Below are positions 2,235-6,464 of a stretch of 64,000 bases of DNA, one piece after another (positions within the stretch are counted from its first letter, which is position 1; every line of letters starts with the position of its first letter). Source of the stretch: Nocardia asteroides (GTDB lineage: Bacteria; Actinomycetota; Actinomycetes; Mycobacteriales; Mycobacteriaceae). Both the position numbers and the translations under genes were made by a program. The notes under the pieces are model-generated. The model did not search any database and was not told the DNA's origin. It saw only the letters and a program-made list of their open reading frames with translations. The stretch spans positions 5,208,001 through 5,272,000 of the forward strand of contig CP082844.1 of assembly GCA_019930625.1 (NCBI GenBank), written 5' to 3'.

Positions 2235-3578
2235 TCATGCCGTCGCCTCGGCGGCGCGGTCGCGCGCTTGCTCGCGCTGTCGGGGACTGCGACGGTGCAC
2301 CACTGCCCGGCCCTTCTTGGCCGGGACGAGCGCGACACCGCGGAAGTGCGCGCGCTCGTCGCGGGCGTCGGTGGGTTCGAGCGTGAAATCACGCAGCAGC
2401 GTGCGCAGCACGACGTTCATTTCCAACGTGGCGAACGCGGCGCCGATGCACCGGCGGCTGCCGCCGCCGAAGGGAATCCAGCTGAAGGTGCCCGGACGGA
2501 CACCGACGAATCGGTCGGGATCGAAGGCGCGGGCATCGGGGAAGAGTTCCTCGTTGTCGTGCATCAACCGGATGTTGGCCACGATCTTCTGGCCCTTGGG
2601 CAGGGTCCACCGGCCCAGCCGCAGAGAATCGGCGCGGACCTGGCGGAACGTGGCATCGACGACCGGCCGCACTCGCTGCACCTCCAGCAGCGTCGCCTCG
2701 CGCAGCTGTGAACCTCCCGCATCGGCTTCGGTGAGCAGGCGGCGCAGGATGTCCGGGTGCCTGCGCAACCGTTCGATCGTCCACGCCAGCGTTGTCGCCG
2801 TCGTCTCGTGTCCGGCCGTGAGCAGGGTCAGCAATTCGTCGGCGATCTCAGCGTGCGACATGGCCGAGCCGTCGTCGTAGCGCGCTTGCAGCAGCATCGC
2901 CAGCACGTCGTCGCGCTCATCGATCCGGTCGGCTGCGGCGCGGTCGACGAGTCGGCCGACGATTTCGTCGTAGCGTCGGCGATAGGCCGCGAACCGGGCC
3001 CAGGGACCGAGCCTGCCCAGCGCCCGCTGGGGAACCGGGACGGCCGCGAGGGCCGAGGCCACCAGCACCAGTTTGGGTAGCAGTCGGCGCAGTTCGTCGA
3101 ACTCCGCGCCCTCGGCGCCGAAGACCGCGCGCAGGATCACGTTGAGCGTGATCCGCATCATCGAGTCCATCGTCGCGAACTCGCGGCCCGACGGCCAGGC
3201 CGCCATCTCCCGGACCGCTTCCTCCTCGATGAGCGATTCGTACACCGCCAGCCTGCGGCCGTGGAAGGGCGGGGTGAGCAGTTTGCGCTGCTTGCGGTGT
3301 TCGGCGCCGGTCAGCGCGAACAACGAACCCGGCCCGAGGAACTGGCCGAGGTTGACGTCGAGGTTGTCGACGAGGTCGGTGCTCGCGGTGAACAGGGCTT
3401 TGATCTCGGCTGGATCGGCGAGCACGACGCATGGGCCGAATCTGGGCATCTGGATGGTAAAAGCCGATCCGTAACGGTCGTGCATCCGTCGCCAAGTCCG
3501 GGTTCGCCCGGTGAGTATCTGCAGGTTCTGCACGATCGGCGGGGACGAGGGCCCGTCGGGAATGCGCACAGCGGGCAT
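2235..3578 (-). CDS. Cytochrome P450
   Basis: This is a heme-thiolate monooxygenase of 447 residues. It shows the I-helix oxygen-activation motif AGHETT, the K-helix E-x-x-R in LLEVQRVRP, and the heme-binding loop FGGGSRRCIG with the cysteine ligand. There is no signal peptide or membrane anchor, so it should be cytoplasmic and rely on a separate ferredoxin; none is encoded nearby. The ATG at 3578 is chosen because GAGGAGGT lies 6-8 bases upstream; the longer frame to 3647 would run through the promoter. The substrate is unknown. The upstream region holds a good promoter and two operator-like palindromes, suggesting regulation by the neighbouring TetR protein. Confidence 0.95.
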   Translation of the reverse strand: MPAVRIPDGPSSPPIVQNLQILTGRTRTWRRMHDRYGSAFTIQMPRFGPCVVLADPAEIKALFTASTDLVDNLDVNLGQFLGPGSLFALTGAEHRKQRKLLTPPFHGRRLAVYESLIEEEAVREMAAWPSGREFATMDSMMRITLNVILRAVFGAEGAEFDELRRLLPKLVLVASALAAVPVPQRALGRLGPWARFAAYRRRYDEIVGRLVDRAAADRIDERDDVLAMLLQARYDDGSAMSHAEIADELLTLLTAGHETTATTLAWTIERLRRHPDILRRLLTEADAGGSQLREATLLEVQRVRPVVDATFRQVRADSLRLGRWTLPKGQKIVANIRLMHDNEELFPDARAFDPDRFVGVRPGTFSWIPFGGGSRRCIGAAFATLEMNVVLRTLLRDFTLEPTDARDERAHFRGVALVPAKKGRAVVHRRSPRQREQARDRAAEATA

Positions 3579-3595
3579 GCGCCCACCTCCTCGTG

Positions 3596-3647
3596 TGGTA
3601 CTTCGATGTACCACCAGTACGGTACGCTTGCGTACCGCGTGTGACAA
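3596..3647 (-). promoter_or_regulatory. P450 promoter with two palindromic operators
   Basis: Read on the minus strand, TTGTCA (3647-3642), a 17-bp spacer and TACCGT (3624-3619) form a good sigma-70-type promoter. A perfect palindrome, CGGTACGC-TT-GCGTACCG, covers 3620-3637, inside the spacer and -10. A second, imperfect one (TGGTAC...GTACCA, 3596-3613) lies just downstream, before the ribosome site. Both share GGTAC half-sites, as expected for paired sites of one dimeric repressor. The TetR protein at 1464-2081 is the closest candidate. Confidence 0.6.
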
Positions 3648-3656
3648 GGCTTACAC

Positions 3657-4889
3657 CTACCGGTCTCCGCACGCGAGGTCCCACAGCTCGGTGCTGTGGA
3701 CGGCGATCAGCGACGCGATGCGGCCGAGCGCCTCTGACACGGGCAGCCGATCGAGTCGGTGCCCGTCACGCAGGCGCAGCGCCACATCGTCGGGGGCGGC
3801 CTCCTGTGCTCCGATGATCGCTTGATACGGCACGAGACGGTGGTCGCGGATGCGCGATCCGAGACTGCCACGATCCGGCGGGCAGACCACCACGCGCAGC
3901 CCGAGGTCACGGCAGCGCCGTTCGAACCGCTCGGCCGCCGCGTGCTGCACATCGCTCACCGGCAGCACGACCACCTGGGTGGGCGCCAGCCATGCGGGGA
4001 ACCGGCCACCATGGTGTTCGACCAGGTGAGCCACGGCGCGCTCGATGCTGCCGATGATGCTGCGATGCACCATGACCGGCCGGTGCGCGGCGCCGTCGGC
4101 GCCGGTGTAGTGTAAATCGAACCGCTCGGGTTGATGGAAATCGACCTGAACGGTGGACAGGGTGGACTCCCGTCCCGCGCTGTCGCGGACCTGCACATCA
4201 ATCTTCGGGCCGTAGAACGCGGCTTCGCCTTCCACCGCCTCGTAGCGCAGGCCGGAGTCGTCCAGGACGTCGGTGAGCACCGCCATCGAGCGCTCCCACA
4301 GTCGCGGCGCGGCAACGTATTTCCCACCGGGTCCGGGCAGGGACAACCGGTAGCGAGCCGCGTCGATGCCCAGCGCGGCATAGGCGGAACCGATCATCGC
4401 CAGCGCCGCGGCGACCTCGGCACAGACCTGATCGAGGGTGCAGAAGATATGCGCGTCGTTGAGCTGGATCGCGCGCACCCGGGTCAATCCGCCCAGCACG
4501 CCGGAGAGTTCGGAGCGGTACATGCCGCCCAGTTCAGCGATCCGCAGCGGCAGTTCCCGATAGCTGTGCGCGCGGGAGCGGAACAGCAGCGCGTGGTGCG
4601 GGCACAGGCTCGGACGCAGCACCACTTGTTCGCCGCCCAGGTCCATCGGCGGGAACATGTCGTCGCGGTAATGCCGCCAGTGCCCGGAGATCTCGTAGAG
4701 TTCGCGTTTGCCGAGCACCGGCGAATACACGTGGCGGTAGCCCGCGCGGTGTTCGGCGGTGCGGATGTAGTCCTCCAGGGCCTGGCGCACCGCCGCGCCG
4801 TCGGGCAGCCAGAACGGCAGTCCCGCGCCGATCAGCGGGTCGGTGTCGAACAGATCCAGCGCACGGCCGAGGGTGCGATGGTCGGGCAT
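3657..4889 (-). CDS. Short threonyl-tRNA synthetase lacking TGS and editing domains
   Basis: The 410-residue product consists only of the class II catalytic core and the anticodon-binding domain. Housekeeping ThrRS is about 640-690 residues because of N-terminal TGS and editing domains, which are absent here. The three zinc ligands of the active site appear conserved: the Cys in RPSLCPHH, the His in NDAHIFC, and the His in VMVHRSIIGS. Motif 2 is recognisable (MYRSELSGVLGGLTRVR), and the C-terminal domain has the anticodon-binding look (VVVLPVSDVQHAAAERF). The ATG at 4889 follows GAGGAGACC. The leader upstream may carry an attenuator. This should be a second, stress- or inhibitor-inducible ThrRS rather than the housekeeping enzyme. 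A role in resistance to a ThrRS inhibitor is inference only. Confidence 0.88.
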   Translation of the reverse strand: MPDHRTLGRALDLFDTDPLIGAGLPFWLPDGAAVRQALEDYIRTAEHRAGYRHVYSPVLGKRELYEISGHWRHYRDDMFPPMDLGGEQVVLRPSLCPHHALLFRSRAHSYRELPLRIAELGGMYRSELSGVLGGLTRVRAIQLNDAHIFCTLDQVCAEVAAALAMIGSAYAALGIDAARYRLSLPGPGGKYVAAPRLWERSMAVLTDVLDDSGLRYEAVEGEAAFYGPKIDVQVRDSAGRESTLSTVQVDFHQPERFDLHYTGADGAAHRPVMVHRSIIGSIERAVAHLVEHHGGRFPAWLAPTQVVVLPVSDVQHAAAERFERRCRDLGLRVVVCPPDRGSLGSRIRDHRLVPYQAIIGAQEAAPDDVALRLRDGHRLDRLPVSEALGRIASLIAVHSTELWDLACGDR

Positions 4890-4890
4890 G

Positions 4891-4956
4891 GTGGTCTCCT
4901 CGTCAACAACGGGCGAGTGACCACAAGATGAAGCCCGGGGCACTCGCCCCGGGGCT
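4891..4956 (-). promoter_or_regulatory. Candidate attenuator: mutually exclusive hairpins before the ThrRS start
   Basis: In the transcript, hairpin A pairs AGCCCCGGGGC with GCCCCGGGCT (4956-4932). Hairpin B pairs GGGCGAGTG (4949-4941) with CACTCGCCC (4919-4911), nine perfect pairs, and uses part of hairpin A, so A and B cannot coexist. A third stem pairs GTGGTC (4924-4919) with GACCAC (4896-4891); it places the Shine-Dalgarno bases at 4901-4896 in or beside the stem, just before the ATG. No long U-run follows hairpin A. The arrangement fits ribosome-controlled attenuation or translational masking, but no folding calculation was made. Confidence 0.5.
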
Positions 4957-4971
4957 GGGATGGAACAGGGA

Positions 4972-5022
4972 TCAGCGCGCCGGGACGGATTCCGGCGTCG
5001 TCGTCACAGCAGCGCGCTTCAC
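4972..5022 (-). CDS. Possible leader peptide with three consecutive Thr codons
   Basis: A 16-codon frame, VKRAAVTTTPESVPAR, starts at GTG 5022 and stops at 4972, 82 bases before the ThrRS start. Its three adjacent ACG codons (5004-4996) would be where a ribosome stalls when charged tRNA-Thr is scarce. A short stem, CGCCGG...CCGGCG, overlaps the codons just after them, and the alternative hairpins follow. A -10-like TAGCGT lies eight bases before the GTG, so it could be translated leaderless. It is the tail of a longer open frame (up to 5181), so the start is inferred. Confidence 0.5.
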   Translation of the reverse strand: MKRAAVTTTPESVPAR

Positions 5023-5171
5023 GTCGGCGACGCTAGCAGACGCCACCGTCGCCGCACACCCGAATATCGCGTGCGCCGCCGCGAGAGGCGCGAAGATCTC
5101 GAAGCGCCCCCCGGCACGGCGGCTTTCGCGCATAATCGACTTCGATTGGCATGCAATGACATCGGGGGTCG

Positions 5172-6464
5172 ATGGGGACACGCAGAGCGGTGCTGCAAGC
5201 GGGGGTGATGCTCCCGCTGGCTGCCGCGTGCGCGCCGGATCTGCTGCTGGGCAGTTCGGACGCGGTGCGTGTCGGGGTGTCCTGGAGCGGGTCGGAACTG
5301 GCCGCCTTCCACGCCGTACTCGACGGGCTGAACCTGCCCTTCGACGTCGAAGTCATCCCGCTCGGAGACAACACCGACACCGCCTTCAGCGCAGGCGGCC
5401 GATCCGCGCCGGACGTGGTGCTGCTGCCGCAGGCGGGGCGGGTGCGGGAACTGGCCGAGCGAAAGAAACTACGGCCGATCGCCGAGACGGTGTGGACCGA
5501 CGACCTCGGTCCCCGCTACGCCCAGCACTGGCAATTGTTGCTGCGCTATGGAAGTCGTGCGTTCGGCGTGCCGTTCAAGGCCGCCGACAAGTCACTGGTG
5601 TGGTACGACCGGCGGCAGTTCGACACCTACGGGTTGGGTGACCCGGCGGAATGGACGCTACCCGACTGGGTCAACCGGATGGAGGTCCTCGCACAGTCGC
5701 CGATCCGCCTGCTCGCGCTGGCCGCCGCCGACGGATGGGTGCTGACCGACTTCTTCGAAAACGCCCTGCTGGCCGAATCACCCAGGATCTACGACGAACT
5801 GGCCTCCCGGAGCGGACGAGAGTGGGACAACCCGGCAGTGCGGGCCGCGCTCACCCACCTGGGGGTCCTGTGGGGACACCGGCACGCCTTTCCCGGAGGA
5901 GTCGGGGTCGCGTTGACCCGGCAGTTCTCCGACGCCGTCCGCGACGTGTTCCAGCATCGCCACGCCGCAGCCGTGGTCGCCCCCGATTTCGCCGAACCGA
6001 TCATCCGCAGCGCGGTGCGCGCGTCCGGCCGCGAGGTGCGGGACGTGGTCGGGGTAGCGCCGTTTCCGTCCGTCAACACCGCGTCGGGGCGGCCGAAGAT
6101 CGTCGGCGGTGACGTGATCGTGGTGACACGCGAAGCGAACCGGCGCGCCGAGGATCTGGTCGAAAAACTGGCCGGTGTCCACGCCCCTCTGCCCTGGATC
6201 GAGCGCTACGGCGGTTTCCTCACGCCGAACATGCGCACCGACGCGACGTACTCGCCGCTGCTGGCATCCTCGGCGCGTGAGCTGAACGCCCGCAGCGCCT
6301 TCGACCTGTCCGACCGGATCGGCGCGGTGGGCGCACGGGAAGGATTGTGGCGGGTGCTGACCGAATTCCTGATCGCGATCGGCGACGGTGCGCAGACGCG
6401 GGTGGCCGAGTCCATCGAACGCGCGATCACCGCGCTGGACGGCTTCGAGCGGCGGCCCCGGTGA
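5172..6464 (+). CDS. ABC transporter extracellular solute-binding lipoprotein
   Basis: The 430-residue product has a lipoprotein signal: Arg-rich start, hydrophobic stretch, and lipobox LAAAC with the Cys at residue 20. The mature part has the fold of carbohydrate-type (MalE/UgpB-like) binding proteins, with elements such as VPFKAADKSLVWYDRRQF, which resembles the FKVDTKSLVWYNK region of that family. It would be anchored on the outside of the membrane and deliver substrate to the fused permease encoded next, with which it overlaps by 4 bp. The ligand is not evident. No ATPase gene is in the cluster, as in actinobacterial sugar importers that share a common MsiK-type ATPase. Confidence 0.88.
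   Translation: MGTRRAVLQAGVMLPLAAACAPDLLLGSSDAVRVGVSWSGSELAAFHAVLDGLNLPFDVEVIPLGDNTDTAFSAGGRSAPDVVLLPQAGRVRELAERKKLRPIAETVWTDDLGPRYAQHWQLLLRYGSRAFGVPFKAADKSLVWYDRRQFDTYGLGDPAEWTLPDWVNRMEVLAQSPIRLLALAAADGWVLTDFFENALLAESPRIYDELASRSGREWDNPAVRAALTHLGVLWGHRHAFPGGVGVALTRQFSDAVRDVFQHRHAAAVVAPDFAEPIIRSAVRASGREVRDVVGVAPFPSVNTASGRPKIVGGDVIVVTREANRRAEDLVEKLAGVHAPLPWIERYGGFLTPNMRTDATYSPLLASSARELNARSAFDLSDRIGAVGAREGLWRVLTEFLIAIGDGAQTRVAESIERAITALDGFERRPR

Follow-up and report, generated by a model that had tools for sequence, protein, structure and literature searches.

A probable threonine-codon attenuator with a putative second, translational lock and a WblC/WhiB7-type promoter upstream of an auxiliary short threonyl-tRNA synthetase gene

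Introduction

Which signals would bring into use a second, shortened threonyl-tRNA synthetase (ThrRS) in a bacterium that also carries a longer one? The question is raised by thrS2, a gene on the minus strand of the window, by which we mean the whole stretch of 64,000 nucleotides of Nocardia asteroides DNA analysed here. An earlier note on this DNA proposed that a short frame with adjacent threonine codons attenuates the gene and releases it when charged tRNA-Thr is low. The sequences of related loci, together with folding models, support the interpretation of the leader before thrS2 as a Thr-codon attenuator. Our analysis also adds to the earlier proposal a predicted promoter, a leader hairpin (1:2) and a predicted antiterminator (2:3).

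Results

A short ThrRS gene preceded by a threonine leader

The coding features of the locus are as follows.

3657..4889, minus strand: thrS2, short threonyl-tRNA synthetase gene, 410 aa, limited to a catalytic core and an anticodon domain
4972..5022, minus strand: leader peptide ORF, MKRAAVTTTPESVPAR and stop, GTG start, predicted to be leaderless
4996..5004, minus strand: regulatory codons ACG ACG ACG, within the leader ORF

ThrRS2 matched positions 172-562 of the 565-position profile TIGR00418 with 441.7 bits (cut-off 383.65), and PF00587 and PF03129 were its only Pfam domains. Residues C96, H147 and H275, which we take to be the zinc ligands, were invariant in eight aligned proteins. With the curated thrS model matched and these Cys and His residues kept, the protein is predicted to be a threonyl-tRNA synthetase. 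A second, longer ThrRS is encoded in the same genome by an open frame of 717 codons, referred to below as the primary thrS. The database protein closest to ThrRS2 (99%) is labelled Streptomyces gardneri and the next are named Nocardia (85-86%); the former label may be wrong. Elsewhere in the window (2235-3647 and 1464-2081), a cytochrome P450 gene lies downstream of thrS2 and is preceded by a palindromic GTACGGTACGC...GTACC region. This region is perhaps the operator of a nearby TetR-type gene and lies outside the thrS2 leader element.

The 16-codon frame with three adjacent ACG codons described in the earlier note was found on the minus strand, running from a GTG at 5022 to a TGA at 4974-4972 with the ACG run at 5004-4996. 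It ends 82 bases from the thrS2 ATG (4889). This predicted ORF has the run of threonine codons in a short leader that is expected of a ribosome-mediated attenuator.

Distribution of the leader

In a same-genus search of 150 genomes, a short ThrRS of at least 68% identity was found in 51, and three further loci of 46-48% identity were added. One of these 54 loci (L014) was dropped at a contig end, where the leader is not visible. The leader preceded thrS2 in all 53 loci with complete upstream DNA. The three divergent loci follow the common plan in other letters, with a leader of the form MQG...STTTPDTSGAFVM-x and stop, a different terminator and a different 3:5 helix. The L025 leader (L025:2701-2862, minus strand) has an N-terminus seven codons longer (MQRYQSTVHRFQMTTTPDTVPAR and stop) that looks like a partial repeat; its distance from the threonine codons to the stop is the same.

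A covariance model of the leader (R1) was searched against 401 genomes of the family and matched in 37. Inspection of 17 of the matched loci (L078-L094), with eight weaker listed matches set aside, found nine genuine copies, one remnant and seven false matches, five of which adjoin another gene in a single genus (g30). The genuine copies belong to three additional genera of the family. In the remnant (L082, genome G099, approximately 1501-1619), an intact leader, MQRAQSTTTPDTVPAR and stop, runs into the middle of a thrS2 remnant, and the hairpins and start are gone, as in a decaying copy. The thrS2 frame is interrupted in L080 and L091 (338 and 203 residues), with the later motifs in another frame.

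A protein search of named genomes returned 80 loci. The upstream DNA of 18 was inspected; L110 and L111 encode full-length ThrRSs, and the other 16 encode short ones. The short ThrRSs came from Streptomyces, Kitasatospora, Amycolatopsis, Actinocrispum, Plantactinospora and Rhodococcus, and the leader was present in 15 of the 16 loci from these six other genera. The exception, L098 (Streptomyces sp. ms191, 3560-4000), keeps the 3:4 hairpin and the Shine-Dalgarno region and has no Thr leader peptide; its upstream DNA appears to have been replaced.

A leader pattern matched 48 of 394 genomes of the class, compared with four for a backward control pattern, and 42 of 53 matched places were judged genuine by eye. 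From the class and phylum searches, 25 genuine matches were inspected, one of them lying outside the class and two belonging to the same-genus 53; 24 precede thrS2 and one runs off its contig. The comparison set used below comprises 76 leaders, 53 from the genus and 23 from outside it; L098 and L109, which does have a leader (MKRAQPSLTTTPDPVPAR and stop), are not included. Within the N. asteroides genome, R1 found only the thrS2 leader at E < 0.01, and no short Thr-Thr uORF was seen within 300 bases upstream of the open frame of the primary thrS. On these grounds we ruled out a second such leader in this genome, whether on the primary thrS or at another place.

Conservation of codons and peptide

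At least two adjacent threonine codons were present in all 76 leaders, three in 70 and two in six. The last was ACG in every leader and the second-last in 75, with ACC in the other. Proline followed the threonine run in 75 of 76 leaders, giving a TTP motif, and serine in one (L027). ACG is not the favoured threonine codon: six ORFs of the window use ACC 82 times and ACG 43 times, and the primary thrS frame 32 and five times, respectively. Whole leader peptides range from 15 to 25 residues. The distance from the proline to the end is seven codons in 65 of 76 leaders, and the stretch before the proline varies from eight to 18 codons, as expected if the position of the threonine codons relative to the hairpins matters and the peptide does not. 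The residues before the threonine run are variable in sequence and the C-terminus depends on the clade (VPAR or, for example, GAFVMD), in line with codon sensing and RNA pairing. The earlier note had made its proposal depend on threonine codons and conserved stems in related leaders; both were kept in 53 of 53 same-genus leaders, and threonine pairs in 76 of 76.

A WblC/WhiB7-type promoter

The predicted promoter elements upstream of the leader are listed here.

5063..5068, minus strand: WblC/WhiB7-type activator box, GATATT, one mismatch to GAAAWY, 3 bp upstream of the -35
5054..5059, minus strand: -35-like GTGTGC (poor), 18 bp before the -10, with column conservation at -24 to -22
5030..5035, minus strand: -10 box, TAGCGT (TANNNT), 7 nt before the leader start codon

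The spacing of 7 nt between TANNNT and the start codon was found in 65 of 76 leaders. Across the same set, a GAAAWY-like A/T-rich box peaked at -33 to -28 from the -10, three bases before the weak -35, which an 18-base spacer parts from TANNNT. No more than two mismatches to GAAAWY were found at offset -33 in 43 of 76 leaders, whereas offsets outside -35 to -31 gave 0-6 of 76; in 22 of 76 the box was absent (at least three mismatches within one base of the position). The same genome encodes a WhiB-family protein with an RPRGRPR AT-hook, which we take to be typical of WhiB7. WblC promoters have the order GAAAWY, 3 bp, -35 (TKGMNN), 16-19 bp and TANNNT, and the majority of their starts lie 7-8 bp past the -10 (PMC7157823). 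The layout in the window (box, 3 bp, -35, 18 bp, TANNNT) would place thrS2 in the WblC/WhiB7 regulon, and activation by WhiB7 is suggested by homology. S. coelicolor thrS2 was listed as WblC-activated in 2020 (PMC7157823). A transcription start downstream of 4972, which the earlier note regarded as fatal to its proposal, is not indicated: the start is predicted at the leader start codon, in agreement with the leaderless start mapped for S. lividans thrL by RNA-seq (PMC8079986).

Alternative RNA pairings

The segments of the leader RNA are numbered in the order of transcription.

5012..5018, minus strand: segment 1a, AGCGCGC, pairs with segment 2
4992..4997, minus strand: segment 1b, CGCCGG, overlaps the last Thr codon and is the 5' arm of the leader hairpin; its CGG:CCG part is counted in 1:2
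4974..4986, minus strand: segment 2, GTCCCGGCGCGCT, 3' arm of 1:2 and 5' arm of the predicted 2:3 antiterminator
4941..4956, minus strand: segment 3, AGCCCCGGGGCGAGTG, pivot able to pair with segment 2, 4 or 5
4932..4956, minus strand: 3:4 hairpin, terminator-like, AGCCCCGGGGC-GAGT-GCCCCGGGCT, followed by a weak U-tract, TCATCTTG
4911..4919, minus strand: segment 5, CACTCGCCC, pairs with segment 3 or, partly, with the Shine-Dalgarno region
4891..4924, minus strand: 5:6 hairpin, GTGGTC (4924-4919)...GACCAC (4896-4891), predicted fold enclosing the Shine-Dalgarno sequence
4896..4901, minus strand: thrS2 Shine-Dalgarno sequence, GAGGAG, read from the sequence

Segment 2 pairs with segment 1 through GUCCCGGCGCGCU. 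The 1:2 helix was paired in 98.0% of cells among 49 distinct leaders and, being nearly invariant, offers little covariation. The 3:4 hairpin was paired in 95.9% of cells with covariation hardly above shuffles, and it is very stable (median -25.5 kcal/mol). A terminator scan of 4800-5300 found one terminator, compared with 0.1 in shuffles. U-tracts are weak in general, with four T in the first eight tail bases in the window and at least five in only 4 of 53 same-genus leaders (best L046, with seven).

The 9-pair helix joins GGGCGAGTG (4949-4941) to segment 5 (4919-4911), and its overlap with the GC-rich 3:4 hairpin makes the two mutually exclusive. The earlier note had described this pair of competing structures; both are present and overlap. 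In a 50-leader alignment, 98.4% of cells in the 3:5 helix were paired, compared with 40.8-54.0% when it was slid, and 48 cells had changed on both sides, a number reached by 0 of 500 shuffles. Across genera, 91.3% were paired, with 42 double changes compared with 13.4 in shuffles. All 48 double changes lie in the four loop columns of 3:4, so they are not explained by that hairpin, indicating that 3:5 is a pairing in its own right. The covarying 9-bp 3:5 helix thus suggests a second, translational lock.

The earlier note had also drawn a stem over the ThrRS ribosome site, and here the outcome was divided: GTGGTC and GACCAC are predicted to pair around GAGGAG, but the 5:6 hairpin showed no covariation beyond shuffles in a fixed-register test. 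Among the 53 same-genus tails the median probability of a paired Shine-Dalgarno sequence was 0.72 (mean z -1.7), although three or four of these tails ended too early. When the window leader was folded, as the earlier note had recommended, the predicted hairpins were found, and the single-sequence fold was only modestly unusual (z -1.8). An Rfam scan of the window returned 0 families at the gathering score, T-box included, by which a T-box or other catalogued RNA was ruled out. A chance origin of the leader element was ruled out by its conservation and covariation. Judged on its sequence, in which leader, codons, position, promoter box and the 1:2, 3:4 and 3:5 pairings are all seen to be conserved, the element upstream of thrS2 is real.

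Folding with a ribosome on the leader

Three states of nascent RNA extending through segment 3 were folded: without a ribosome, with one stalled on the last Thr codon and with one at the stop codon. A single stall distance was assumed, 12 nt counted from the first base of that Thr codon. A ribosome at Thr yielded at least three expected 2:3 pairs in every leader but L044 (75 of 76), compared with 11 of 76 without a ribosome and 0 of 76 when it stood at the stop codon. The difference between the stalled and ribosome-free states averaged 7.88, compared with 3.5-5.1 in 20 shuffle rounds. Part of this response comes from GC-rich sequence alone, and no more than 13 of 76 leaders exceeded every one of their own 20 shuffles. 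The window leader had 10.8 expected 2:3 pairs with the ribosome at Thr, 0 at the stop codon and 11.2 with no ribosome. Since it forms 2:3 without a ribosome, its basal state would be less cleanly off than the family median. The leader thus has the mutually exclusive 1:2, 2:3 and 3:4 pairings of an attenuator, with 1:2 and 3:4 resting on pairing counts and 2:3 predicted.

When 2:3 was held and the Shine-Dalgarno sequence had not yet been made, 3:5 formed (at least four expected pairs) in 69 of 76 leaders, 2:3 being compatible with a shortened 3:5 that uses the free end of segment 3. In full-length equilibrium folds with 2:3 held, the Shine-Dalgarno sequence was still paired (median 0.735, compared with 0.67 in the off state). 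A translational 'on' step would thus need kinetic, co-transcriptional folding.

Proposed switch

We consider it likely that the auxiliary short ThrRS is controlled by a Thr-codon attenuator of the ribosome-mediated type, which has a translational lock as well and is expressed from a WblC/WhiB7-type promoter. The folding models point to the 2:3 antiterminator, the masking of the Shine-Dalgarno sequence and the following order of events. Transcription would start at the leader start codon. With Thr-tRNA charged, the ribosome would read to the stop codon and cover segment 2, leaving segments 3 and 4 to form the terminator-like hairpin; in any read-through RNA, segment 5 would mask the thrS2 Shine-Dalgarno sequence, and the gene would be off. 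With Thr-tRNA uncharged, the ribosome would halt at ACG ACG ACG and cover segment 1b. Segment 2 could then capture segment 3, blocking the 3:4 hairpin, and the end of segment 3 left free would pair with segment 5 ahead of synthesis of the Shine-Dalgarno sequence, turning the gene on. The switch would thus probably turn the spare ThrRS on when charged threonine tRNA runs out, for example when the main enzyme is poisoned.

The drug site of ThrRS2

Among the short ThrRSs of the first set, all 62 had Gln at the position equivalent to Leu489 of E. coli ThrRS, that of L080 lying in the interrupted frame; in the named-genome set 15 of 16 had Gln there, and L108 had Lys. The primary ThrRS of the same genome keeps Leu at this position. 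Gly463 was unchanged in the aligned proteins. By alignment, ThrRS2 thus appears to carry a substitution at a known resistance position.

Both Gly463 and Leu489 are described as strictly conserved, and Gly463 is the site of obafluorin resistance, whereas L489M in E. coli ThrRS gave no resistance to obafluorin (PMC11252418). Mutations at H309 and L489 raise the borrelidin Ki 300-1000 fold, the ThrRS of the borrelidin producer differs at the position matching Leu489, and the human changes L567W and L567R at the equivalent position destroyed activity (PMC4389257). Borrelidin tolerance of ThrRS2 is plausible from its sequence; the unchanged Gly463, the lack of resistance with L489M and the inactivating effect of the bulky human changes keep us from a stronger statement.

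The short ThrRSs (window 3657-4889 and relatives) are without N-terminal TGS and editing domains, and might as a result mischarge serine. The attenuator may exist to limit the cost of this mischarging.

Discussion

Could the leader act at one level alone, or sense something other than tRNA charging? In purely translational attenuation nothing would be terminated: 3:4 would keep segment 3 from segment 5, which would then mask the Shine-Dalgarno sequence, and stalling would release it. The weak U-tracts of the window and most relatives, the covarying 3:5 helix together with the ribosome-site hairpin, and S. lividans thrL, which has a hairpin and no uridine-rich tract (PMC8079986), are all consistent with this. 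However, 3:4 is very stable, T-rich tails do occur in a few relatives (4 of 53) and the Shine-Dalgarno sequence was not freed in the equilibrium folds, and we regard this account as fairly unlikely. Under classical transcription attenuation alone, 3:5 and 5:6 would be side effects of a GC-rich terminator with no translational role. The 1:2, 2:3 and 3:4 pairings suffice for an attenuator, 2:3 responds to the position of the ribosome and 5:6 does not covary, yet the 48 double-changed cells of 3:5 in the loop columns of 3:4 would go unexplained; we consider this quite unlikely. Short, leaderless peptides are known arrest sensors, and the nascent leader peptide could arrest the ribosome as a direct sensor of the drug rather than report Thr-tRNA charging. 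The TTP motif in 75 of 76 leaders would suit such a sensor, but the residues before the threonine run vary in sequence and length, the C-terminus is clade-dependent and the downstream gene charges threonine, making arrest by the peptide highly improbable. The double lock, in which an attenuator is joined to a translational step, is favoured by the covariation of 3:5 and its formation in the co-transcriptional folds, set against the bound Shine-Dalgarno sequence at equilibrium.

What the switch is for is less certain. WblC is a general responder to antibiotics that target translation, and a role in maintaining aminoacyl-tRNA supply was proposed for its regulon (PMC7157823). ThrRS2 could thus serve stress or threonine scarcity in general rather than drug tolerance, the Gln at the Leu489 position being incidental, which would also fit the unchanged Gly463 and the failure of L489M to give obafluorin resistance (PMC11252418). 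Against this, ThrRSs are said to conserve Leu489 strictly (PMC11252418), yet Gln replaces it in 62 of 62 and 15 of 16 ThrRS2s, and changes at H309 and L489 have a 300-1000 fold effect on borrelidin Ki (PMC4389257). We rate the general-stress role at slightly below an even chance. A more specific proposal, which we put forward tentatively and think possible though on balance doubtful, is that thrS2 provides many actinobacterial genera with an inducible bypass of ThrRS inhibition that takes two inputs, whereby a ThrRS tolerant of borrelidin and without an editing domain would be made only if the two signals coincide. The WhiB7/WblC promoter would report general translation stress and the Thr leader that Thr-tRNA specifically is uncharged, with segment 3 as the pivot setting both transcription termination and access to the Shine-Dalgarno sequence. 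The part of ThrRS2 as a drug-tolerant spare is suggested by homology.

An entry in a table for one Streptomyces species is now tied to a putative switch in many actinobacterial genera, whose proposed purpose is survival of ThrRS poisons from neighbouring microbes. The covarying 3:5 helix provides a handle on the level at which an actinobacterial attenuator works (transcription, translation or the two together), a question that matters where U-tract terminators are scarce. The thrS2 leader could also act as a living sensor for ThrRS inhibitors.

Comparison with known systems

In Bacillus subtilis, the second ThrRS gene thrZ offers a precedent for spare ThrRSs induced by uncharged Thr-tRNA: its T-box leaders switch it on under threonine starvation. 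The thrZ T-box RNA reads the tRNA directly, whereas the window has no T-box at the Rfam gathering score.

The leader has a homologue in S. lividans TK24 thrL, MKRVRPFLETTPGFVPAR and stop, located upstream of thrS and reported in 2021 (Table 4, PMC8079986). Like the window, thrL-thrS has a leaderless Thr leader ending in TTPGFVPAR and stop, a ThrRS gene downstream and a hairpin between them (PMC8079986). The earlier note knew of no such leader for a second ThrRS; with thrL already described upstream of thrS, and its start mapped, a claim to first description falls away (PMC8079986). From the common TTP...VPAR leader, we infer that the thrS behind thrL is a short ThrRS. The thrL account covers one species, two threonines and one hairpin, calls termination 'not clear' and, in its section 14, is silent on a second short ThrRS, on 1:2, 2:3 and 3:5, on Shine-Dalgarno masking, on a WblC box and on breadth (PMC8079986). 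S. coelicolor thrS2 heads the table line that gives the WblC-activated aminoacyl-tRNA enzymes, with a promoter layout that matches the window; those parts of the WblC account that deal with thrS2 do not mention a Thr leader on it (PMC7157823). Within the open-access literature searched, the breadth, the 3:5 helix and the altered drug site of this leader system were not found.

Among resistant ThrRSs, ObaO has Met at the position of E. coli L489, and the enzyme of the borrelidin producer is altered at its counterparts of human Q566 and L567 (PMC11252418, PMC4389257). ThrRS2 differs from both in keeping Gly463, in having Gln at 489, in having no N-terminal domains and in being preceded by an attenuator.

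The trpS2 and leuS attenuators of Streptomyces (Seliverstov 2005, PMC1262725) resemble the thrS2 leader in placing a leader peptide, antiterminator and terminator before an aminoacyl-tRNA synthetase gene in actinobacteria; the main text of that paper has 0 occurrences of thrS and threonyl. An auxiliary, antibiotic-resistant TrpRS of Streptomyces is reported to be under ribosome-mediated transcriptional attenuation (Vecchione and Sello 2010, JB 192:3565). It and ThrRS2 would both be spare synthetases governed by ribosome-mediated attenuation, with tryptophan sensed in the one and threonine in the other.
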